A stretch of 9,958 nt of DNA from Candidatus Fermentibacterales bacterium (GTDB lineage Bacteria > Fermentibacterota > Fermentibacteria > Fermentibacterales > JAFGKQ01), in NCBI GenBank assembly GCA_016928495.1, contig JAFGKQ010000197.1, positions 1-9,958 on the forward strand, read 5' to 3'. The notes beneath the pieces were generated by a model. It was given only the letters and a program-made list of their open reading frames with translations. It searched no databases and was not told where the DNA came from. Below are positions 1 to 9,584 of the stretch, one piece after another; position 1 is the stretch's first letter; every line of letters begins with the position of its first letter. The position numbers and the translations under genes are program-made.

Positions 1-379
1 AGACCTGGTGGTCCAGGGCGGTTTTCTATCTCTCTGGGAGGTGCCCGGCCGCTACCTTGGCAGGGTCATGAACATCCACCCTGCGCTGCTCCCGGGCTTT
101 GGCGGCAAGGGCATGTACGGCATTCGCGTTCACCGGGCCGTGCTGGAGGCTGGCTGCAAGGTGTCCGGCTGCACCGTGCATTTCGTGGATAACCACTACG
201 ATACCGGTCCGATAATAGTCCAGCGCTGCGTTCCGGTAATGGAGGAAGACACGCCCCAGTCTCTGGCGGACAGGGTATTCGAGCAGGAGTGCGAGGCCTA
301 TCCGGAGGCGATAGACCTGTTCGCCGGAGACAGGCTGAGGATCACGCCCGAAGGCAGGGTGGAGGTCCTGGCAGGCTAG
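1..379 (+). CDS. purN: Phosphoribosylglycinamide formyltransferase, C-terminal part (5' end outside window)
   Basis: PurN transfers a formyl group from 10-formyl-tetrahydrofolate to GAR, the third step of de novo purine synthesis in the cytoplasm. The frame is open from base 2 at the window edge, so the N-terminal GAR-binding half is missing. The visible part contains NIHPALLPGFGGKGMYG, matching the family segment NIHPSLLP with the catalytic Asn and His. It is followed by HRAVLEAG, GCTVHFVD, and DTGPIIVQ, whose Asp is the family's catalytic Asp. The C-terminal helix is EQECEAYPEAI. About 125 residues are visible, out of roughly 190-210 in complete enzymes. The family usually has a short PG loop after LLP; here it reads FGGKGMYG, as in some non-proteobacterial PurN proteins. 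The stop TAG at 377-379 overlaps the stop of the convergent lipoprotein gene. Family assignment is firm. Confidence 0.93.
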   Translation, partial: DLVVQGGFLSLWEVPGRYLGRVMNIHPALLPGFGGKGMYGIRVHRAVLEAGCKVSGCTVHFVDNHYDTGPIIVQRCVPVMEEDTPQSLADRVFEQECEAYPEAIDLFAGDRLRITPEGRVEVLAG

Positions 380-1224
380 GGCTCGGGCCCTTCTTCGACG
401 ACCTCCCGCCTTATGGTGAGAAGCCCGTACTGGTGGCACTGGATCATGCACTGACCACACTGGACGCACAGGTCGTGGTCGATGTGCACCCGCCCGGGGT
501 GCTCTCCCGTGCTGTCCTCGAACCACACCGCATCCACTGGGCACCCGGGCCCGCACGAGTCGAGCAGTATGTAGCAGGCCTCGGCGCAGTCACCGCAGTA
601 CTGCTCCCAGTTGGTGTAGCGCATGTAGTAGCGGGAGGACGTGCACACGGGGTCCGAATAGGCCCCGCCCGGGGAGACGGCGCAGACTCCGAAGTAGTAG
701 GGCTGCCCATACGAGTTGTCGGATATGGCATCGAACGGGCAGGTCCTGAAGCACTCCCCGCACTGGGTGCAGAGGGCCGGATCGATGACGGCCTTGCCCG
801 ACGCGGATACCGTTATGGCATCATGGGGGCAGGCGGCTTCGCAGAGGCCGCAGCCGACGCAGGTGTTCTCGAAGACCTCGGGCTGGACGAAGACCGGTAC
901 GGCATCCGTGGGGGATCCGGCGGGCAGTGAGGCGACCACGACCGCGTCATCCCAGTTGGAGGCGCTCATGGGCATCGGATAGACTCTCACCTCGTAGCTG
1001 CTGGCTCCTTCGACGGGCTGCCATGAGAGCGTGAACGGCACGGGATCCGGTGGTACGACCGGTGGAGGGCTGAAGAAGCTGGAGTCGGTGTAGCCCGTTT
1101 CCACGCTCACGGCGCCTACGGGGGGAGGAGGGCTTCCCGAGGGGGAGTGCTCGCTGAGACACGCCGCAGTGACGGCAAGAACACAACACGCCGAAACCAG
1201 CAGGTGCTGCTTCAAGTCTGTCAT
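376..1224 (-). CDS. Exported, probably lipid-anchored, protein with ferredoxin motifs apparently inserted in an Fn3-like domain
   Basis: 282 residues. Residues 1-22 form a short signal with hydrophobic core LVSACCVLAVTAAC. Cys22 is a possible lipobox Cys, although Thr at -3 is atypical. A Pro-rich linker follows (about 28-63). Residues 64-82 (FTLSWQPVEGASSYEVRVY) read like the first strands of a fibronectin type III domain. A bacterial-type ferredoxin module follows at 122-167, with Cys122/125/128/132-Pro and Cys152/155/158/162-Pro, each a CxxCxxCxxxCP motif. Residues 176-195 (YYFGVCAVSPGGAYSDPVC) resemble the closing Fn3 strands. A second ferredoxin-like part has an irregular set, Cys210/213/224/228-Pro with a 10-residue gap and an extra Cys217, then Cys253/256/259/263. 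I infer electron transfer or Fe-S binding at the cell envelope; partner and substrate are unknown. The ATG follows GGAAGG with no spacer, so the ribosome site is unusual. No operon partner is visible. Confidence 0.85.
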   Translation of the reverse strand: MTDLKQHLLVSACCVLAVTAACLSEHSPSGSPPPPVGAVSVETGYTDSSFFSPPPVVPPDPVPFTLSWQPVEGASSYEVRVYPMPMSASNWDDAVVVASLPAGSPTDAVPVFVQPEVFENTCVGCGLCEAACPHDAITVSASGKAVIDPALCTQCGECFRTCPFDAISDNSYGQPYYFGVCAVSPGGAYSDPVCTSSRYYMRYTNWEQYCGDCAEACYILLDSCGPGCPVDAVWFEDSTGEHPGRVHIDHDLCVQCGQCMIQCHQYGLLTIRREVVEEGPEP

Positions 1225-1521
1225 CCTTCCGCTCGGCTGACTGGGCTCCGAGCGCCCAGGGACCCAGCCGTATATATCTGCCTTCCCCGTCCCGCTGTCA
1301 GCCCCGGGAGGCGCGGTTCTGGCCTGTGGTCATGGGAAGCGACCTGTCCCGCGATCCAAGCAACCCGGGTGCGCTGCCTTCGGTTCCGTTGCGTGGGCTG
1401 TCGCTCTGTGCCTGGAGGCATGGCTTGCCCCCATGCCGCCCGCACAGTCATTGTCTGTCTGATTCGAGCAGTATTGGCGAGCCTGCCGTTCGCCCCGCGC
1501 GCGGCGAGGAGTGAGACCTGC
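1225..1521. other. Divergent intergenic region between the lipoprotein and cyclase genes
   Basis: This gap of 297 bases separates two divergent genes. The cyclase frame stays open across it, back to 1147 inside the lipoprotein gene. The translated stretch has no recognisable domain, is rich in Arg, Pro and Cys, and overlaps the opposite gene, so I treat it as non-coding. It holds the candidate minus-strand promoter at 1271-1301 and an AGGAG ribosome site at 1507-1511, 10 nt before the ATG at 1522. I see no convincing plus-strand promoter; TTGTCT at 1451-1456 has no matching -10 at normal spacing. Confidence 0.6.
1271..1301 (-). promoter_or_regulatory. Possible sigma70-type promoter of the ferredoxin lipoprotein gene
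   Basis: Read on the minus strand, CTGACA (1301-1296) matches 5 of 6 bases of the -35 consensus. An AT tract GATATATA lies 17-19 bp downstream (1278-1271), the only AT-rich patch in this GC-rich gap. The best -10 register is uncertain because none has both the conserved A and the final T. The implied leader to the ATG at 1224 would be about 40 nt. This is motif matching only. Confidence 0.35.
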
Positions 1522-4500
1522 ATGTCGGATTACCTGGCGTCTCTGATCAGAGAGGATCTCGAGAAGCTCTCGGAGATCGTCGTCGACCGCGCCCCGGCAT
1601 CCGGCAAGCTCCTGCCTGGCGAGAGACGCAGGGTAGCCATTCTGTTCCTCGATCTCAGCGGCTTCACCGCTCTGTCGGAGCGTCTGGATCACGAGGTCCT
1701 TCACCGCCTCACGGGCGGGCTGATGAAGGCTCTGGCCAGGGTGGTCGAAGCGCATGGCGGCTACGTGGACAAGTTCGAGGGCGACAGGATCATGGCGCTC
1801 TTCGGGGCCCGGGCCGCCTTCGAGAACGACTGCTCGAGGGCGGTCGCGTCCGGGCTTCGGATGCTGGAGACCATCGAGGAGATCAATGGCATACTGCAGT
1901 CCTGCTCCCCTGGCGGTGCTCCGACCAGGCTCTCGGCCAGGGTGGGGATCAGCTTCGGGTCCGTCACGGTGGGTCCCGACCCTTCCGGGCATCTCACGGC
2001 GATGGGCGAGGAAGTGAGCATGGCCTCGAGGCTCGAGGAAACGGCCCGGGTGGGAACGGTCCAGGTGGCCTCCAGGGTCCGTCGGGAGTGTGGCGACCTC
2101 TTCGAATGGCTGGACCTGGGGGACATGGCCATCGATGGCATAAGCAAGCCCGTGCGGACCTTCAGACCCCTCGGCCCGGGGTCGGTCCGAAGGGACAGGT
2201 GGGAGAGGGCGTCGCGCGTGGCCAGGTCACCCCTGGTCGGCCGGCGGCGCGAGACGCTGAGGCTCTACGAGCTATGGGACAAGCAGAGAGCGGGAGTGGG
2301 TCGCAACCGCAGGGGCGGGGCAGTTCACGTGCTGCTGGAGATCGTGGGTGATGCCGGCATAGGCAAGTCACGGCTCGTGGAGGAGTTCCTGGATGCCCGG
2401 AGCGGGGAAGAGGCGGGGATTTCGGTGCTCCGGGGCCAGGCGCAATCGTTCGCTCAGCCTCCCTACCGCGTCTGGACCAGCCTTATCAAGGAGCATCTGG
2501 GTATCGGCCCCGCTGACGGTGACCCGGTCAGCAGGCTCTGCTCCTGGGCTTCGGGGGTCCCCGAGGATCTGGATGGCTCCATGCCCTTCCTCTCGGCCCT
2601 CCTGTCCAGTGACTTCGAGGATCAGCGCCTCAGGCAGCTCGACGGAGAGGCTCGCCACCAGGAGACTCTGGCCGCGATCCGCGACTTCGTCAGGGCGGCG
2701 GCCGGAAACAGCCCGGGGAGAGTGGTCCTGGTGCTCGAAGACCTGCAGTGGATGGACGCGGCCTCGCGCGAGGCGCTGGAGTTCGTGCTCGGCAACTGCG
2801 ATACGGCGAGACCGATTCTGTTCCTGTGCCTCAGCAGGCCGGCAGATCAGGAGGGCTGGGCCGGCCCCGCGGCCATCCCACCCGGATACGTCCGGAACAG
2901 GCGTATCAGACTGGAGTCCCTCAACGAGGAGTACATGGCCACGATCGCCGGCTACGTACTGAGACCGGATAGCGCAGACTCCGTAGACCAGTACCTTCCG
3001 GCGGGAGTCGGGCGATTCCTGCTCGACCGGGCGCAGGGCAATCCCTTCTTCCTGGAGGAGCTGATCCTCCACCTGCTCGAGATGGGCATCCTCGAGCCTT
3101 CGGACGATGGATGGAGAGTCGACGGCTGCCTCGAGGATGTCCAGGTGCCGGCATCCGTGAGCGGAATCGTGTGCGCGAGGCTCGACGGTCTGCCCAGGGA
3201 GCTCAGGGCCACGCTCCAGTGCGCCTCCGTTCTCGGCCCCTCGTTCGGAGAGCGGCTGTTCGGGGCGGTGAGCACCGTCATGGAGCTGGATCAGGAACCG
3301 GCGCAACTGGCCCGGGACCTGGTCAGCCGTGGCTTCCTGACCGACGCGGGTCCCGATTCGGGCGCCTTCTCGTTCGTGCACGAGCTCGTGAGGGAGTCGG
3401 CCTACGAGACCATGCTGGTGCACAACAGGAAGGTAATACACTCCAGGACGGCTCGAGTGCTCGAGCAGGACTACCCGGACTTCTCGGCTGCCAACCCCGA
3501 CGTGGTGGCGGAGCACTTCCTGAAGGCGGGCGACATGGATGGGGCCATCAGGTGGGGCATGGCTGCCCTTTCCAGATGCGTCAGCGACTACCGCAACGAG
3601 GAGGGTCTGGAATGGGCGGCGAGGCTCCAGGGCTGGATCGTGAGCAGCGTGACTGATCGCGGAGAGGCGCGCGAGCTGGAGTTCCAGGCCCTCACGAGCA
3701 AGCTCTCGATCCTGGAGGTACTCGGCAGGACGGGGGAGGCCGGGTCCGTGCTGGAACGCATGGAGGAGCTGGCCCGCGAGCAGTCCTCGAACCTCTGGAT
3801 GGCATGGGTGATGCGGCACCGCGCCTCCCTTCTCCACCTGATGGGCAAGGTCAGCGAGGCCGCTGAGCTCGTGACCAGGGCTCTGGCGACAGCCAGGGAG
3901 CAGGGGGATGTGAAGCTCCAGATGGACTGCTACCAGATCATGGGCCGTCTGCACTGGCTCCGAGGGCACTTCGAGGAAGCCCTGGAGAGCTACGCGGCCT
4001 CGCGCGTTCTAAGCGACGGCAGCGAGGACAGGACATCCGGCTTCGCGGGCCAGCGGGTCAACATCGGCTCGATACTGATACAGCAGGGACGATACGAGGA
4101 TGCGAAGCGCGACTACGACGAGGCTCTCGACATCTATCGCGATGCCGGGGACAGGCGTGGTGAGGCGCGTGTTCTTTCCTCGCTCGGAGTCCTTCACGGG
4201 ATGAAATCGGATATGGGACGGGCTCTTGCCTGCATGGAGGAGGCGCTGCGCATCTACGTGGAGATCGGGAACAGGAGAGGCGAGGGCGTGGTCCTGGGCA
4301 ACCTCGCTGTCTGCCGCTTCGAGGCGGGGGATGTCGAGAGCGCGCTGGAGACTGCCAGGCGGTCGCTCGACATCCACCGGGAGATCGGCAACCGCAAGAG
4401 CCAGGGCGTCGCACTGAACAACGTCGGGGACTTCAGCCGGACTCTCGGGCGGAGCAGGGAGGCGCGGGAGGCCTACGAGCAGGCGCTGGTCATAGCGCTG

Positions 4501-4740
4501 GAGGTGGGCAACCCGGCCAGCGAGGCGAGCGTCAGGAGCGGAATGGGCCTGCTGGAGCTCTCGGAAGGGGAGATCGAGCTGGCCGCACAGCACTACGAGC
4601 GGGCAAGCAGTATTGCGGAGGAGCTGCACCTGACGGAGAGCATGCTTCCCAGGCTGAGGGAGCTGGGCATGAGGCTTCTCGAGACCGGGAAGGTCGGGGA
4701 ACAGCGGCTCTCACTGCCCTCGGCCTGGGAGGAGGAATAG
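1522..4740 (+). CDS. Class III adenylate cyclase - AAA/STAND-like ATPase - TPR signalling protein
   Basis: 1072 residues, cytoplasmic (no signal or membrane segment). The family would convert ATP to cAMP under control of a nucleotide-binding and protein-interaction module, like human soluble adenylyl cyclase and many bacterial homologues. Cyclase domain about 34-215: metal-binding Asp44 in FLDLSGFTALSE and Asp88 in DKFEGDRIMALFG. Lys84 and Thr159 fit adenine selection, and Arg170 is kept in GEEVSMASRLE. The usual transition-state Asn is Ser166. ATPase about 236-530: VGRRRE entry, Walker A GDAGIGKS (276-283), Walker B VVLVLEDLQWMD (401-412), and the NPFFLEEL segment common in this family. A helical region with FVHELVRESAYE follows, then TPRs (about 660-1035) with a clear 40-residue period at the end. 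Only one cyclase domain is present, so a homodimer is expected. The start at 1522 is chosen from AGGAG at 1507-1511 and the absence of domain homology upstream. Confidence 0.92.
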   Translation: MSDYLASLIREDLEKLSEIVVDRAPASGKLLPGERRRVAILFLDLSGFTALSERLDHEVLHRLTGGLMKALARVVEAHGGYVDKFEGDRIMALFGARAAFENDCSRAVASGLRMLETIEEINGILQSCSPGGAPTRLSARVGISFGSVTVGPDPSGHLTAMGEEVSMASRLEETARVGTVQVASRVRRECGDLFEWLDLGDMAIDGISKPVRTFRPLGPGSVRRDRWERASRVARSPLVGRRRETLRLYELWDKQRAGVGRNRRGGAVHVLLEIVGDAGIGKSRLVEEFLDARSGEEAGISVLRGQAQSFAQPPYRVWTSLIKEHLGIGPADGDPVSRLCSWASGVPEDLDGSMPFLSALLSSDFEDQRLRQLDGEARHQETLAAIRDFVRAAAGNSPGRVVLVLEDLQWMDAASREALEFVLGNCDTARPILFLCLSRPADQEGWAGPAAIPPGYVRNRRIRLESLNEEYMATIAGYVLRPDSADSVDQYLPAGVGRFLLDRAQGNPFFLEELILHLLEMGILEPSDDGWRVDGCLEDVQVPASVSGIVCARLDGLPRELRATLQCASVLGPSFGERLFGAVSTVMELDQEPAQLARDLVSRGFLTDAGPDSGAFSFVHELVRESAYETMLVHNRKVIHSRTARVLEQDYPDFSAANPDVVAEHFLKAGDMDGAIRWGMAALSRCVSDYRNEEGLEWAARLQGWIVSSVTDRGEARELEFQALTSKLSILEVLGRTGEAGSVLERMEELAREQSSNLWMAWVMRHRASLLHLMGKVSEAAELVTRALATAREQGDVKLQMDCYQIMGRLHWLRGHFEEALESYAASRVLSDGSEDRTSGFAGQRVNIGSILIQQGRYEDAKRDYDEALDIYRDAGDRRGEARVLSSLGVLHGMKSDMGRALACMEEALRIYVEIGNRRGEGVVLGNLAVCRFEAGDVESALETARRSLDIHREIGNRKSQGVALNNVGDFSRTLGRSREAREAYEQALVIALEVGNPASEASVRSGMGLLELSEGEIELAAQHYERASSIAEELHLTESMLPRLRELGMRLLETGKVGEQRLSLPSAWEEE
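4141..4620 (+). repeat. Four in-gene 120-bp repeats encoding 40-residue TPR units
   Basis: Units start at 4141, 4261, 4381 and 4501, exactly 120 bp apart and in frame. Their first residues are DAGDRRGEAR, EIGNRRGEGV, EIGNRKSQGV and EVGNPASEAS (residues 874, 914, 954 and 994). DNA similarity is clearest between units two and three (GAGATCGG-AAC-...-AGGGCGT). The 40-residue spacing with a G(D/N)R start is the extended TPR type seen in LGN-like and Rap-like peptide- or protein-binding scaffolds. This supports a ligand- or partner-sensing C-terminus for the cyclase. Confidence 0.8.
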
Positions 4741-4757
4741 CGGAGGACGGGGAGAGA

Positions 4758-5462
4758 TCAGTCCTTCGCGAGCTGCTTCCGCACCAGCTCGAGCATTGCC
4801 GCTCTGAGCTCCTCGTCGACGCCGGGGTCCAGATCGATCTGAATGGTGATCCTGCATGAGCCTCCGGTCTCCCCCCGGGGAGCTGCTGAGGAGGCTTGGG
4901 CCCTTGAATCAGCCTGGCCGGTGGCGGCTTCCTCTGCGAAGGCCCGCTCGAGGCCGACATCCGGCTCCGGGGCTGCCGGCGATTCGCTCTTCGCCGCCTT
5001 CGACCTCCTGGCAGGCTCTTCCTGCTTCCTCTCCTGCTTCTGGACCTCTCCCAGCTTCGCGAGGTCGCAGAGCACCTTGAAGGTCAGGATCATGTAGGCG
5101 GCTTCCTGGTCGCCGGTCCTGGTCTCCTTCTTGAAGAAGTCCATCAGTGGCCTGCCGTCGGCGGACTGGGCTTCCGGGACCGCCTTGAAGAGCTTCCAGT
5201 AGCCTGCCTTCACGGCCTCTCCAAGCAGCTTCGGCCCCCGGCCCTTGTGCCTGACGCCGCTCCAGAGCTCGGTGGGGAGGCCATCGGGGTCGGTGAAGCC
5301 CAGGAAGGTCAGGAGCATCTCGAGGCTCTCGTCCGTCTCCCTGCGGAAGCCTGCCGCGACCAGGTAGTCCTCGCTCACCTTCTCCGGCGGATCGTTGGTC
5401 CGTATGTGGTTGAGGAGAAGCTCTATGCTGCCGGGGTCTCTGACCGCGGGGAAGTCAGCCAT
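4758..5462 (-). CDS. DUF5343-type protein of unknown function
   Basis: 234 residues, soluble, no signal peptide. Residues 10-140 match the DUF5343 pattern as I remember it. There is an N-terminal winged-helix-like part (GSIELLLNHI...DYLVAAGFR), LEMLLTFLGFTDPDGLPTEL (48-67), and GEAVKAGYWKLF (81-92), the family's aL..ai..gY..LF block. Residues 140-200 form a charged, Ala/Pro/Glu-rich, probably disordered linker. Residues 203-231 (CRITIQIDLDPGVDEELRAA and onward) match the short C-terminal IQIxL segment often found in these proteins. Such proteins are often found near defence or accessory genes, but no reaction is known to me and none is claimed. The ATG has a good ribosome site (GAGAGGAG, about 6 nt upstream). 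The 3' end lies 17 bp from the convergent cyclase stop. It is the last gene of the minus-strand run, 92 bp after the deaminase. Confidence 0.78.
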   Translation of the reverse strand: MADFPAVRDPGSIELLLNHIRTNDPPEKVSEDYLVAAGFRRETDESLEMLLTFLGFTDPDGLPTELWSGVRHKGRGPKLLGEAVKAGYWKLFKAVPEAQSADGRPLMDFFKKETRTGDQEAAYMILTFKVLCDLAKLGEVQKQERKQEEPARRSKAAKSESPAAPEPDVGLERAFAEEAATGQADSRAQASSAAPRGETGGSCRITIQIDLDPGVDEELRAAMLELVRKQLAKD

Positions 5463-5554
5463 CGGGTGCTCCTCTCAATATCTGATGCGCGATTCTCCAC
5501 ATCCATTGTCCGGATACTAACACCCGTGCGCTCGGCGCGCCCAGCCCGGAGGAG

Positions 5555-6031
5555 TCAGTCGCGCCTCCTGGCGGAAGGGTAGGAATCGAGGTCGTAGTTG
5601 ATTGTCAGGCCAGGCATGGGGATTCTGGACAGCTCGACCCCCGATTCCCCGAAGAACCTCTCCGCCAGGGTGTCGTGGTAGTCAGAGAAGACGACCACGC
5701 GCTCGATTCCGGCAGCAATCAGGGCCTTGGCGCAGGTGGTGCAGGGAAGGTTGGTGACGTAGGCCGTGGCGCCCCTGAGGCTCACGCCGTGCCGTGCGGC
5801 CTGGCATATGGCGTTCATCTCCGCATGGTTGGTCCGGACGCAATGGTTGTCCACGACCAGGCAGCCCTCGTCCTCGCAGTGGGGCGAGCCCGGGAGCGAG
5901 CCGTTGTAGCCCGTCGAGAGGACGTACTTGTCCTTGACCAGCACGCACCCGCAGTGCATGCGGGGGCAGGTAGCCCTCTCCGATGCCAGCATGGCGAGCT
6001 TCAGGAAGTACTGGTCCCAGGATGGTCTCAG
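5555..6031 (-). CDS. comEB: dCMP deaminase (ComEB family), apparent CTG start
   Basis: 158 residues counted from a CTG at 6031. The family deaminates dCMP to dUMP for thymidylate synthesis, using a catalytic zinc, in the cytoplasm. The zinc site is HAE (69-71, catalytic Glu71) and PCTTC (96-100). Other conserved blocks are ERATCPR (18-24), GYNGSLPGSPHC (41-52), GAxAYVT near 88-93, and a C-terminal NYDLDSY. The first ATG in frame (5992) would remove RPSWDQYFLKLA, the conserved first helix of the family (RPSWDEYF). That helix is encoded immediately upstream, after a CTG at 6031-6029 preceded by AAAGGAG (6044-6038) with a 6-nt spacer. The frame closes with TGA at 6046-6044. The preceding gene ends at 6112. 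Residues Cys22, Cys27, Cys29, His51 and Cys52 could include a structural zinc site. The family is certain; the start codon is an inference. Confidence 0.9.
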   Translation of the reverse strand: MRPSWDQYFLKLAMLASERATCPRMHCGCVLVKDKYVLSTGYNGSLPGSPHCEDEGCLVVDNHCVRTNHAEMNAICQAARHGVSLRGATAYVTNLPCTTCAKALIAAGIERVVVFSDYHDTLAERFFGESGVELSRIPMPGLTINYDLDSYPSARRRD

Positions 6032-6111: not shown

Positions 6112-7632
6112 TCAGATGCTCCAGTCGAGCTGAAGGCCTACCTCGGTGCGATGGGGTCCTCGGGTCTCCTCGTAGCCGGAGCCCATGGACTCCGCGCCCT
6201 CTCTCGCCAGATGACCGATCCTTGCCCTGACAGTGGCCGCCTCGCTCATCCGGACCCTCAGGCCGACCTGCAGCAGGAAGCCCCTGCCCTGGACCGGGAG
6301 GCTTCCGAACTGCCCCGGGAAGCACACCTCGTAGAGGTAGATCCTGGTCTCGTAGTCGTCGGTACTGTAGCCCGCGCCGGCCACGGTCAGCTCCAGCCGG
6401 TGTGCCGGGCAGAGCTTCAGGCGGACCTCGAGGGCGGCTCCAACCGTTGTGCTGTCATGGCCGGACGGCTCGAAGCTGCAGGCATGCGCCTTCGCGCTCA
6501 CCCTCACGTCTCGGTCGAGCTGCCAGTCGAGCCCGAGCGACCCTCCCAGGTAGCGCTCCCCGGGCTGGTCGCTGGAGACCCTGAGCTTGGCGCTCGCGGC
6601 CAGGCCCGGCGCTAGCCTCTGCTCTATCGAGAGCCGCGCCTGAGCGGAGCCGGGGCTGGAGGCGCCCTCGTCGGCAAGCTCCAGCAGTGCGCCGATCGCG
6701 GTGCAGGACAGAGGCCTGAGCCTGACTCCCCAGGCGAGACCCGTCTCGCCGGGAGCTCCGGGAGGGCAGGACCTGCCTACCGGGAAGCCGGGGGAGGTGT
6801 GGTGGAGAGAGACGGCGGTCCGGACCGTTCCGGCGTCCAGGGCGGGGCACAGCAGCACGGAGAAGGCCGCCTTGGTCGAGTCTGACCAGCCTGCCGCTGC
6901 TTCCGCGGTGATCGATACGGGGCCATCCCTGCCGACCAGCCAGTCCATGCCCCCCCTGAGCCAACTGCCCTGCCGTGCTCCCGCCTCCGTGCCGGTGGCC
7001 ACGCTGCAGGCGATGTCGCCGGCCTCAGCCCTGATGGCGGAGAGCACTTCCCTCACGCCGGCCCTCGAGTCGATCTCGAGCTCGGTGCGGTGGAGTCCGT
7101 CCTGAGAGGTGTCGAGCCAGGACAGGCCCTGGATCAGAGAGAGGCTCACTCCTCCCAGCCGCATTCCGGCGGCAACGGCGGTGAGGGGCTCGCCCTCGGA
7201 GGCGCCGGCACTGGTCGAGAGAGAGGCCTCTGCACGGCGAGCGGGCGGCTTCGCGGAAGCATCGACAGGACCGGTCCCCCATCCCCCGCTCTGGTCCAGG
7301 ACGAGGCCGGTTCCGAGAGTCGCCCTCAGCCAGCCGGCACGAAGGTAGGAGAGAAGCCCGGCGTCCGGAATCCAGCCCACGCCTCCGGAGACCAGATCGC
7401 ACCAGCGCTCGCCCCGGTCCTTCTCGAGAAGCAGAAGGGCCTCGAAGCGGGGGGCGCGGAGCTGCGACCTGTGCAGGAAGACGAGCTCGTCTCCCGCGTA
7501 GATGCTCTCCAGCGTGCCCCTGCAGGGAGGCCAGCGGCGCTCCAGCCTGGTCCTCGACTCGAAGGCCGAGGCCCAACCTGGAGCGATGATGCCCGAGCCG
7601 GCGAGCAGAGACACCAGAAGCAGGAGCCTCAC
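6112..7632 (-). CDS. Outer-membrane beta-barrel-like protein of the HhH-associated family
   Basis: 506 residues from a GTG at 7632-7630. Residues 1-24 (MRLLLLVSLLAGSGIIAPGW then ASAF) are a clear signal peptide with a probable ASA|F cleavage near 23. The rest is rich in alternating hydrophobic/polar stretches with Gly and Ser, typical of barrel strands. The C-terminal ~78 residues hold RIYLYE (430-435), a PG-F-S-LP-Q-GRGF block, then MGSGYEE, RTEVGLQL and DWSI. This resembles the C-terminus of Bacteroidota proteins that carry HhH domains before a barrel. Role unknown; transport or DNA/envelope contact would be guesses. The GTG overlaps the TGA of the HhH gene in GTGA, which implies translational coupling. 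The frame is open upstream to 7905, but that part overlaps the HhH gene and has no exported character. About nine cysteines are scattered through the exported part. Confidence 0.75.
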   Translation of the reverse strand: MRLLLLVSLLAGSGIIAPGWASAFESRTRLERRWPPCRGTLESIYAGDELVFLHRSQLRAPRFEALLLLEKDRGERWCDLVSGGVGWIPDAGLLSYLRAGWLRATLGTGLVLDQSGGWGTGPVDASAKPPARRAEASLSTSAGASEGEPLTAVAAGMRLGGVSLSLIQGLSWLDTSQDGLHRTELEIDSRAGVREVLSAIRAEAGDIACSVATGTEAGARQGSWLRGGMDWLVGRDGPVSITAEAAAGWSDSTKAAFSVLLCPALDAGTVRTAVSLHHTSPGFPVGRSCPPGAPGETGLAWGVRLRPLSCTAIGALLELADEGASSPGSAQARLSIEQRLAPGLAASAKLRVSSDQPGERYLGGSLGLDWQLDRDVRVSAKAHACSFEPSGHDSTTVGAALEVRLKLCPAHRLELTVAGAGYSTDDYETRIYLYEVCFPGQFGSLPVQGRGFLLQVGLRVRMSEAATVRARIGHLAREGAESMGSGYEETRGPHRTEVGLQLDWSI

Positions 7633-8705
7633 GGGCAGGAGCCGATGGTGATGAACGCCCTCATTCCTTCCAGCATCGCCGGGCCGATGCCGGGAACCAG
7701 GCACAGATCCTCCAGGGTTTCGAAGGGACCATGCAGCTCGCGGAACGAGACGATCGCCGCAGCTCTCGCCGGGCCGATGCCCGGGACAAGCTCGAGTGTC
7801 CTCGCATCCGCCGTGTTGATGTCCACCGGCAGGCTCGCTTCCGGGGAATCGGGCTCGCTGGCCCAGACGATAGGCTCGGGACGGAAGCGGCAGCTTCCCC
7901 AGCATCCGCAGACGCTATGGGTGGCCGGAAGCTCGGAATGCTGCGAGCAGGCGTAGCAGAGGCCTGCCGGCCCTATGCTCACGGACAGGACTGCACAGAA
8001 CCGCAGCGGGCCGGTCCTGATGCCAATCCCCGCGGTGAGCCTTCGATCCGGGGTGAAGGCAGACAGAAGCGACAGCTCCGGATCGAGATGCTCCTCGCGG
8101 TGGAGCCCCAGGCTGACCTCCACGCCTTCGGCCGGGCACGCTCCCGCGCAGATCTCGATGCTCCTGGGGCAGCAGGGATCGCCGGACCGCCCGATGTCAG
8201 TCCTCAGGGCTCCTCGAAGAGAGGCCCCGAAGTAGAGCCCTCGAACCGGGCGGGAGACCATGCCCAGGTCGGCCGAGCAGCCCAGCCCGGTGCCGTACCC
8301 GCTTATCCCGAGGCGGCGCAGGCAGACGGAGCCCCCGGCCACCAGCCCCCTCCGGACGCGCCAGGCGAGGGCCCCTCCGAACGAGAGCTCGCAATAGGTC
8401 CTGTCACCGCTCGCCGCCATCACTGCCCCCGCCGTTCCGAAGCCCATGGGAAGGCAGGCCCCGAGGGCGGCCCTGTCCAGCTCGCGAAGCCCGAAAGGCC
8501 TGGCGGCCGAGCCCGCGATGGCGGCGGATTCCATGAGACCCAGACAGGCCGGGTTCTGAACCAGCACGAGAGGGGTTGAGGGCCACAGCGCCGCCGCGGC
8601 GCCCGCTTCCTGCCACGGGTCCTCCGCTACCAGCTCGAACGCTGCTCGCAGCGGCGGCGCCAGGAGAAGCAACGTCAGCAGGAGCGGAAGGCTCTGGATC
8701 CTCAT
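7629..8705 (-). CDS. Exported beta-strand-rich protein with C-terminal ComEA-like helix-hairpin-helix domain
   Basis: 358 residues. The signal peptide is MRIQSLPLLLTLLLLAPPLRA (cleavage after about 21-22). Residues 45-250 contain NPACLGL and repeated Gly-rich amphipathic strands, similar in style to PorV/UPF0164-type barrel proteins, where NPAGL is common. A Cys-rich stretch (about 247-276: CYAC...VCGCWGSC) leads to a ComEA-type double HhH domain at 293-350. That domain reads PVDINTADARTLELVPGIGP, then ARAAAIVSFR, then LCLVPGIGPAMLEGMRAF. HhH domains of this kind bind DNA non-specifically in ComEA, the periplasmic DNA-uptake receptor; that function here is inference. There are 17 cysteines in total, high for an exported protein. 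The TGA is shared with the GTG start of the next gene. The start has only a weak ribosome site. Confidence 0.82.
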   Translation of the reverse strand: MRIQSLPLLLTLLLLAPPLRAAFELVAEDPWQEAGAAAALWPSTPLVLVQNPACLGLMESAAIAGSAARPFGLRELDRAALGACLPMGFGTAGAVMAASGDRTYCELSFGGALAWRVRRGLVAGGSVCLRRLGISGYGTGLGCSADLGMVSRPVRGLYFGASLRGALRTDIGRSGDPCCPRSIEICAGACPAEGVEVSLGLHREEHLDPELSLLSAFTPDRRLTAGIGIRTGPLRFCAVLSVSIGPAGLCYACSQHSELPATHSVCGCWGSCRFRPEPIVWASEPDSPEASLPVDINTADARTLELVPGIGPARAAAIVSFRELHGPFETLEDLCLVPGIGPAMLEGMRAFITIGSCP

Positions 8706-8759: not shown

Positions 8760-9584
8760 TCAGATTGCCTTCAGGGCCTTGAGCAGCGTCAGGATGCCGA
8801 GGAGGGTGGTGGCGATGCCGACGAAGAGCGTTAGCCGGCCCAGGCTGATCCTCTTCACGGTCCAGGCGGAGAAGGGCACCGAGAGCATCGCACCCACCAC
8901 GAGGCAGGGCGCAAGGCTCCAGTCCGCCTGAGTGCGGAGTGCGAGATAGGTCAGCACACCCACGAGGCAGGTGAAGCCCTCCGCCAGAGAGGTTATCGCG
9001 ACCGAGCTCCTGCTCTCGACGCCGGAGAGGATCTGGCCGGAGGTCACGAGCGGGCCGTAGCCGCCTCCGGAGAGACCCTTGTTGAAGGCCGCGAGAACGC
9101 CAAGCCCGACGATCCTTCCCCAGGAGAACCTGAGACCCTTGCGGTGCCTGAGAAGGATCAGCACCCCCATGGACAGGACCACTCCCCCTATGAAGAGCCT
9201 GAGCGCAAGTCCGGAGATGTTGATGGCAAGGAGGACTGCGCCCACCGCGCCGACCAGGCTGCACGCACCGAGCACCATGGCGATCCTCGAGTCCCTGCTC
9301 TTGGGCACGTAGCCTAGCCTGCCCATCTTCTTCGCTATCCAGTGCTCGCTGTCATGCGAGAAATCGAAGAACACGTTGCCCGCCCTGTGATGCATCACTG
9401 CCGCGAAGGTGCCCGTGAACAGCTCGGACAGCAGTATGGCCGGCACCACTGCCAGAGGGCTCCAGCCCATCAGCAGCAACAGAGGGGTCAGGGCGGTCCC
9501 GTAGCCCATCCCCAGTGTGGAGTCGACGTACTCGCAAGCGAAGGCGAGTCCCGCAAGCGAAGCGCAGGAGAGCAGGGAGTCCAC
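8760..9584 (-). CDS. TauE/SafE family permease (putative sulfite/organosulfonate or other anion exporter)
   Basis: 274 residues, inner membrane. The family exports sulfite, sulfoacetate or similar anions, but substrate cannot be read from this sequence. Hydrophobic segments lie at about 8-20, 29-60, 101-121, 125-145, 156-170, 196-217, 224-242 and 250-270, near the usual eight helices. Family signatures are DSTLGMGYGTALTPLLLLMG in the first repeat and NKGLSGGGYGPLVTSGQ (168-183 region) in the second, marking the typical inverted-repeat fold. Residues 70-100 (FDFSHDSEHWIAKKMGRLGY and on) form a hydrophilic, charged loop. The start is a GTG at 9584-9582 preceded by GGAGG with about five spacer bases. 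The upstream 119-bp gap carries a TTGACA and two palindromes, next to an AbrB-like regulator gene, suggesting local regulation. Confidence 0.88.
   Translation of the reverse strand: MDSLLSCASLAGLAFACEYVDSTLGMGYGTALTPLLLLMGWSPLAVVPAILLSELFTGTFAAVMHHRAGNVFFDFSHDSEHWIAKKMGRLGYVPKSRDSRIAMVLGACSLVGAVGAVLLAINISGLALRLFIGGVVLSMGVLILLRHRKGLRFSWGRIVGLGVLAAFNKGLSGGGYGPLVTSGQILSGVESRSSVAITSLAEGFTCLVGVLTYLALRTQADWSLAPCLVVGAMLSVPFSAWTVKRISLGRLTLFVGIATTLLGILTLLKALKAI

Follow-up and report, generated by a model that had tools for sequence, protein, structure and literature searches.

The window, i.e., the whole stretch of 9,958 nucleotides analysed here, corresponds to the entire contig C291 of a fragmented, 81% complete genome (MAG) of 2.3 Mb from the order Fermentibacterales. 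It harbours, on the minus strand, a gene designated hereafter as gene 1 (Table 1), located alone between a convergent formyltransferase gene (2-379, plus strand), the stop codon of which overlaps that of gene 1, and a divergent gene coding for a large adenylate-cyclase/AAA_16/TPR protein (1147-4740, plus strand). The other open reading frames of the window include a 597-aa ORF (6112-7905, minus strand) devoid of any Pfam match, apparently exported and strand-rich, and a ComEA-like helix-hairpin-helix protein that bears a long extension at its N-terminus (7629-8705, minus strand), which overlaps the start of the 597-aa ORF.

Table 1. Gene 1 of the window with the parts of its product, and the genes accompanying it in related genomes (positions are those of the window).
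Feature	Length or residues	Position	Strand	Basis or character
Gene 1, Fn3/ferredoxin lipoprotein	282 aa	376..1224	-	ORF; alignment of 33 rows
Signal peptide and lipobox Cys22 (VTAAC)	1-21 and 22	1159..1224	-	Sequence; C22 conservation
N-terminal part of Fn3-like sandwich; strands A, B 64-67, C 76-82, C' 95-101, E 109-111	28-113	886..1143	-	AlphaFold2, VIA-align (predicted)
2[4Fe-4S] ferredoxin module 1, in the E-F connection	114-171	712..885	-	Fer4 match, invariant Cys, superposition on 9g03_E
C-terminal part of Fn3-like sandwich; strands F 176-183, G 199-205	172-205	610..711	-	AlphaFold2, VIA-align (predicted)
Divergent ferredoxin module 2	206-270	415..609	-	Eight invariant Cys (33 rows); low-confidence model
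Gene 2	138-164 aa			Signal peptide, probable Fn3-split ferredoxin
Gene 3	~77 aa			Signal peptide, minimal 2[4Fe-4S] ferredoxin
Gene 4	~82 aa			Lipobox, minimal 2[4Fe-4S] ferredoxin
Gene 5	~400 aa			Predicted outer-membrane β-barrel
Gene 6	~375 aa			DsbD_2-type membrane protein

In a Pfam search, three stretches of the intact window protein matched Fer4-type families, and fn3 gave no match at E<1. A previous sequence-only reading had seen likely opening strands of an Fn3 domain in FTLSWQPVEGASSYEVRVY (residues 64-82) and likely closing strands in YYFGVCAVSPGGAYSDPVC (residues 176-194), with two CxxCxxCxxxCP motifs between them, in what was considered an exported, probable lipoprotein. Both motifs occur between these two stretches, at C122-C132 and C152-C162, and all of their cysteines (C122, C125, C128, C132 and C152, C155, C158, C162) are invariant in an alignment of 33 rows, consisting of the window protein and 32 homologues sharing 36-51% identity with it. 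A signal peptide followed by a lipobox-like motif was found in 32 of the 33 rows, the exception being a row truncated by its contig, and the lipobox residue C22 is at least 90% conserved, in agreement with the proposed lipid anchor. That reading had considered only these first eight cysteines and had missed the second ferredoxin module and the operon context. The second module contributes eight more invariant cysteines (C210, C213, C217, C228 followed by Pro, and C253, C256, C259, C263); it is divergent, the spacing of its first motif being longer than the canonical one. The sixteen cysteines are sufficient for four [4Fe-4S] clusters and the window protein is most likely an exported lipoprotein carrying four such clusters, cluster binding and location both being inferred.

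The AlphaFold2 model of the window protein, built from the 33-sequence alignment, has a mean pLDDT of 74 and a pTM of 0.66. Block pLDDT values amount to 84-93 for residues 61-110 and to 82-93 for residues 171-200, while the confidence is fair for the first ferredoxin and poor for the second module and the linker 49-60. Residues 115-168 superpose on the clostridial ferredoxin 9g03_E over 52 of 52 residues with an rmsd of 0.9 A (VIA-align), so that Pfam, the alignment and the modelled fold all point to module 1 as a ferredoxin with two CxxCxxCxxxC(P) motifs. With its eight cysteines in canonical spacing, it closely resembles the clostridial-type 2[4Fe-4S] ferredoxins (1fdn, 9g03_E), but differs from them in being nested, exported, lipid-anchored and followed by a divergent second module.

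The residues flanking the ferredoxin are modelled as β-strands, four preceding and two following it, and the complete FnIII domain I110 of titin (8bw6) aligns with residues 28-202 of the model over 92 of 99 residues (Z 9.4, rmsd 2.7). Since residues 28-113 account for only 86 residues, both halves are necessary for such an alignment. Similarly, 89 of the 90 residues of FN3tt (7jgu) are aligned across both flanks. The two flanks consequently belong, in a structure which is predicted and not solved, to one seven-strand sandwich, and no complete Fn3 domain occurs on one side alone. The strand order B, C, C', E, insert, F, G places the insert in the E-F connection, where it had been supposed to lie. 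In this respect, the full strand set and the core Trp/Tyr positions of Fn3 domains are retained, whereas the E-F connection is broken by a ferredoxin of 58 residues and the sequence falls below Pfam detection.

This last point leaves room for another explanation, namely that the flanks are two unrelated β segments surrounding an ordinary exported ferredoxin. Even after excision of the ferredoxin, the fn3 family was found in only one of ten single sequences, with a non-significant E-value of 0.02. However, a profile of 20 ferredoxin-excised sequences, compared with all PDB sequences, retrieved Fn3 domains as its three best matches, albeit weak ones (E 0.03, 0.34 and 0.39), and the weak alignment with 3mpc spans the splice point. 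W68 and Y77 are at least 90% conserved, Y176 and A182 are invariant, and these four residues occupy what we take to be the expected core positions of Fn3. Together with the matching of both flanks by complete FnIII domains, this makes unrelated flanks very improbable. Owing to the lack of a significant Pfam match, the Fn3 assignment rests on the model, the core residues and the weak profile matches; the evidence from sequence, weak as it is, agrees in direction with the model. The nesting of one 2[4Fe-4S] ferredoxin in the E-F connection of an Fn3-like sandwich is accordingly supported, as a predicted structure. The surface adhesion fold evoked previously is retained insofar as the modelled fold is Fn3-like, without implying any adhesion function. 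A ferredoxin nested in Fn3 is an unusual design for fixing a redox centre in place. Neither Pfam nor NCBIfam has a curated family with this arrangement, and its sequence relatives in the PDB are limited to the ferredoxin part.

Full-length homologues of gene 1 were found throughout the order in a search of 60 related genomes. The same architecture is kept by the 32 homologues in spite of their limited identity, and thus cannot be attributed to chance. Among 385 genomes searched, the gene-1 profile matches 34 of the 42 genomes of the order at E<=1e-18; in two of them (G038 and G040) the match is restricted to the shorter gene-2 paralogue, leaving 32 of 42 genomes with gene 1. No homologue was detected in the ~343 genomes sampled outside the order, the single profile match obtained there (1/~343) being confined to the ferredoxin stretch. 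Duplicate copies, stand-alone or in tandem, occur in G006 (C3), G009 (C21, 6113-9020), G022, G028 and G041. This conservation gives good support to the suggestion of a possible extracytoplasmic redox family, which even appears understated, the role of electron carrier remaining inferred.

Gene 1 is, in most genomes, the first gene of a compact operon of overlapping genes. Genes 1-4 overlap or almost abut (overlaps of 4, 4 and 17 bp in G009), and all 18 operon loci compared contain the ferredoxins, gene 5 and gene 6, followed downstream by a CitE/HpcH-like gene in 13 of them. The products of genes 3 and 4 consist almost entirely of a signal and a 2[4Fe-4S] ferredoxin. Two of the four ferredoxins of the operon are lipoproteins and, according to the motif count, up to ten clusters would be distributed over the four. 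The ferredoxin-excised profiles of genes 1 and 2 match each other (hhalign prob 86.8, P 4e-6; column-shuffled controls gave 0.1-0.3) and, as this match does not involve the ferredoxin, the operon probably contains the nested design twice. None of the operon ferredoxins, nor the barrel or the DsbD-like protein, attains a curated NCBIfam cutoff. In the genome of the window, genes 2-6 are located on another contig (C299, locus L012), from 7016 down to 3601 on the minus strand, behind a different gene; this reflects either a separation of gene 1 from the operon in this lineage or a break in the assembly.

The product of gene 5 is predicted as an outer-membrane β-barrel of ~20 strands, with a mean pLDDT of 84. 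Foldseek gives MtrB of the Mtr complex (6r2q_B, E 4.9e-8) as the best PDB match, with porins, ushers and TonB receptors scoring only slightly worse. In VIA-align the top places are taken by generic barrels and TonB receptors and MtrB is missing from the best matches, and the Foldseek rank was set aside as a proof of relation. The structural matches thus support gene 5 as a predicted barrel but not its homology with MtrB. Of the 42 genomes of the order, 36 are matched by the barrel profile, against none outside it. The six genomes lacking the barrel also lack gene 1, the whole system being missing there, whereas four others (G027, G029, G038 and G040) possess the barrel without a detected gene 1, which assembly gaps may explain.

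Gene 6 belongs to the DsbD_2 family (PF13386, E 4.5e-22). It shares with the DsbD/CcdA thiol shuttles a transmembrane core with invariant cysteines in the TM1 and TM4 regions (the invariant residues of gene 6 being C19, C23, C101, C104 and C128), but differs from them by its own C-terminal CxxC domain (C371xxC374), its linkage to ferredoxins and its occurrence in genomes without detected cytochrome c maturation. The TauE/SafE-type transporter encoded in the window (8760-9584, minus strand) belongs to a distinct family.

The way in which these ferredoxins would be exported and loaded deserves particular attention. TatC is present in most genomes of the order, including that of the window, and the idea that export must proceed through Sec because the Tat system is missing was rejected. 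A twin-arginine pair occurs in 1 of 33 gene-1 signals, 0 of 18 gene-2 signals, 6 of 29 gene-3 signals and 0 of 28 gene-4 signals, and is absent from the signal of the window protein. These counts render the Tat route unlikely for genes 1, 2 and 4 and possible for gene 3. Judging from their sequences, the operon signals look mostly Sec-type, and Sec normally exports unfolded protein, which raises the question of how the clusters are loaded. CcdA/DsbD is known to keep thiols reduced before haem attachment and, by analogy, a DsbD-like partner could keep the ferredoxin thiols reduced. The exported four-cluster ferredoxins HybA, FdoH and FdnH are reported to be secreted in a folded state via Tat (PMC7232013), as are the other periplasmic Fe-S proteins found described in the literature. 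A literature search for exported or periplasmic ferredoxins associated with outer-membrane proteins yielded only Tat-exported subunits of the HybA type or chance matches.

The mostly Sec-type signals and the thiol shuttle encoded in the operon are also what would be expected if the Cys-rich modules had lost their clusters and acted in the periplasm as disulfide-bonded structural domains or, with the DsbD_2 protein as partner, in thiol-disulfide exchange. Such an interpretation is improbable, since the full CxxCxxCxxxCP spacing and the cluster-packing residues are found in every member. In addition, four of the 18 gene-2 proteins (from G001, G003, G012 and G030; L044, L045, L058 and L060) exhibit a CxxDxxC sequence, with an Asp at the second Cys of the first motif of this exported ferredoxin. 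The same Asp-for-Cys ligand change is known in the ferredoxin of Pyrococcus furiosus. The resulting odd number of cysteines is hard to explain by disulfides and corresponds to a known cluster ligand set, which fits with iron-sulfur clusters.

Taking the proteins as cluster-bearing ferredoxins, the cytochrome background of the order has to be considered. PF01578 (CcmC/CcmF/CcsA) was found in the controls but in none of the 42 genomes of the order, of which 24 have a completeness of 90% or more and a contamination not exceeding 5%; it is inferred that c-type cytochromes are not made there by the known systems I and II. To our knowledge, the known trans-outer-membrane electron conduits depend on multihaem cytochromes. 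Those conduits, MtrCAB, PioAB and Geobacter Pcc, resemble the operon in associating exported multi-centre electron carriers with an outer-membrane barrel (gene 5, by prediction, on another contig in the genome of the window), but the operon is devoid of haem or CXXCH carriers, its barrel comprises ~20 strands versus 26-28 in theirs, and no sequence relationship was detected. No multihaem c-type cytochrome, the defining feature of the MtrCAB family, occurs among the operon carriers, all of which are Fer4 proteins, and the operon is therefore not classed in that family; the MtrCAB porin-cytochrome conduit (PMC7096707) offers a functional analogy.

The invariant set of 16 cysteines, the nested fold, the conserved overlapping operon, the joint absence of barrel and gene 1, and the lack of PF01578 all count in favour of a haem-free system, and we incline, with some reserve, to consider the four-cluster lipoprotein, the three exported ferredoxins, the barrel and the DsbD_2 protein as a haem-free electron-transfer set of the envelope. 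Most likely, the operon proteins would form an extracytoplasmic iron-sulfur relay, in which the Fn3 shell would probably fix both the place and the orientation of the ferredoxin within the envelope, and the DsbD-like protein would keep the many cysteines reduced for cluster insertion and/or supply electrons; the electrons would most likely be exchanged, without haem, between the inner membrane on one side and the outer membrane or cell surface on the other. Several points stand against such a set. The evidence for clusters, location and electron flow is entirely non-experimental, the MtrB match is barely better than those of ushers and ordinary porins, and neither a terminal oxidoreductase nor an inner-membrane quinol/ferredoxin donor was found within the operon. 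Dithiol potentials are high for the reduction of low-potential clusters. Gene 1 lies off the operon in the genome of the window, and the system is missing from six genomes of the order. Finally, no conserved twin-arginine motif is found, unlike in the Tat-using four-cluster ferredoxins (PMC7232013).

The comparison with these ferredoxins can be extended. HybA, FdnH and FdoH are likewise extracytoplasmic four-cluster ferredoxins involved in anaerobic electron transfer, and the 16 cysteines of the HybA/FdnH-type set are present in gene 1, with a different spacing in the third motif. However, they possess a Tat signal and a transmembrane helix and function in hydrogenase or formate dehydrogenase complexes (PMC7232013), whereas gene 1 has a lipid anchor, an Fn3 shell and no enzyme partner. 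Their mode of action suggests that the exported ferredoxins might equally form a chain confined to the periplasm, linking the inner membrane (through DsbD_2 or Rnf/RnfG) to a periplasmic reductase encoded elsewhere, with the barrel as a substrate porin and no electron crossing the outer membrane. The DsbD_2 protein of the operon, the FMN_bind (RnfG-type) proteins present in 36 of the 42 genomes of the order, the resemblance of the barrel to generic porins and the precedent of HybA (PMC7232013) make this chain possible, though rather unlikely in view of the absence of any reductase or hydrogenase gene linked to the operon, the lipoprotein nature of two of the four ferredoxins and the constant association of the barrel with them. 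The more ambitious proposal of a "porin-ferredoxin" conduit, in which exported lipid-anchored and soluble ferredoxins, some of them in Fn3 shells, would build a [4Fe-4S] wire through the outer-membrane barrel in an order without detected c-type cytochrome maturation, the insertion or maintenance of the clusters taking place outside the cytoplasm, is put forward only tentatively. The crossing of the outer membrane is itself an inference, and the data do not decide between a relay ending in the periplasm and one that crosses the outer membrane.

A role in the envelope in sensing or storing iron, sulfide or oxygen, with sacrificial or regulatory clusters and no conduit, would account for the presence of several small ferredoxins lacking an enzyme partner and for the absence of the system from some close relatives. 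It deserves little credence, as no signal-transduction gene occurs in the operon at the loci compared, and ten clusters spread over four proteins, plus a barrel, would be unusual for a sensor.

Should the haem-free electron-transfer set be confirmed, it would show iron-sulfur clusters to be a possible basis of envelope electron transfer, and surveys of electroactive bacteria limited to CXXCH would overlook such organisms. The operon makes in this respect a specific and testable claim on haem-free envelope electron transfer, and the entry of clusters into proteins with mostly Sec-type signals is another testable question that it poses.

Two further candidates (L010 and L011) turned out by inspection to be ordinary NapG/NapH-like and Mrp-like Fe-S proteins. 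The nearest match outside the order (L009, contig JAOZSR010000107.1, 1378-6705) belongs to the Neomarinimicrobiota. Its 271-aa protein was rejected as an orthologue, since it carries a twin-arginine signal (RRKFIK), consists of successive ferredoxin-like repeats and lacks Fn3-like flanks. The locus nevertheless encodes twin-arginine polyferredoxin lipoprotein-like proteins of 99 and 271 aa beside a NapH-like Fer4_5 membrane protein, together with two exported, strand-rich ORFs (1378-2559 and 4523-5833), and possibly represents an analogous ferredoxin and barrel cluster in another phylum.
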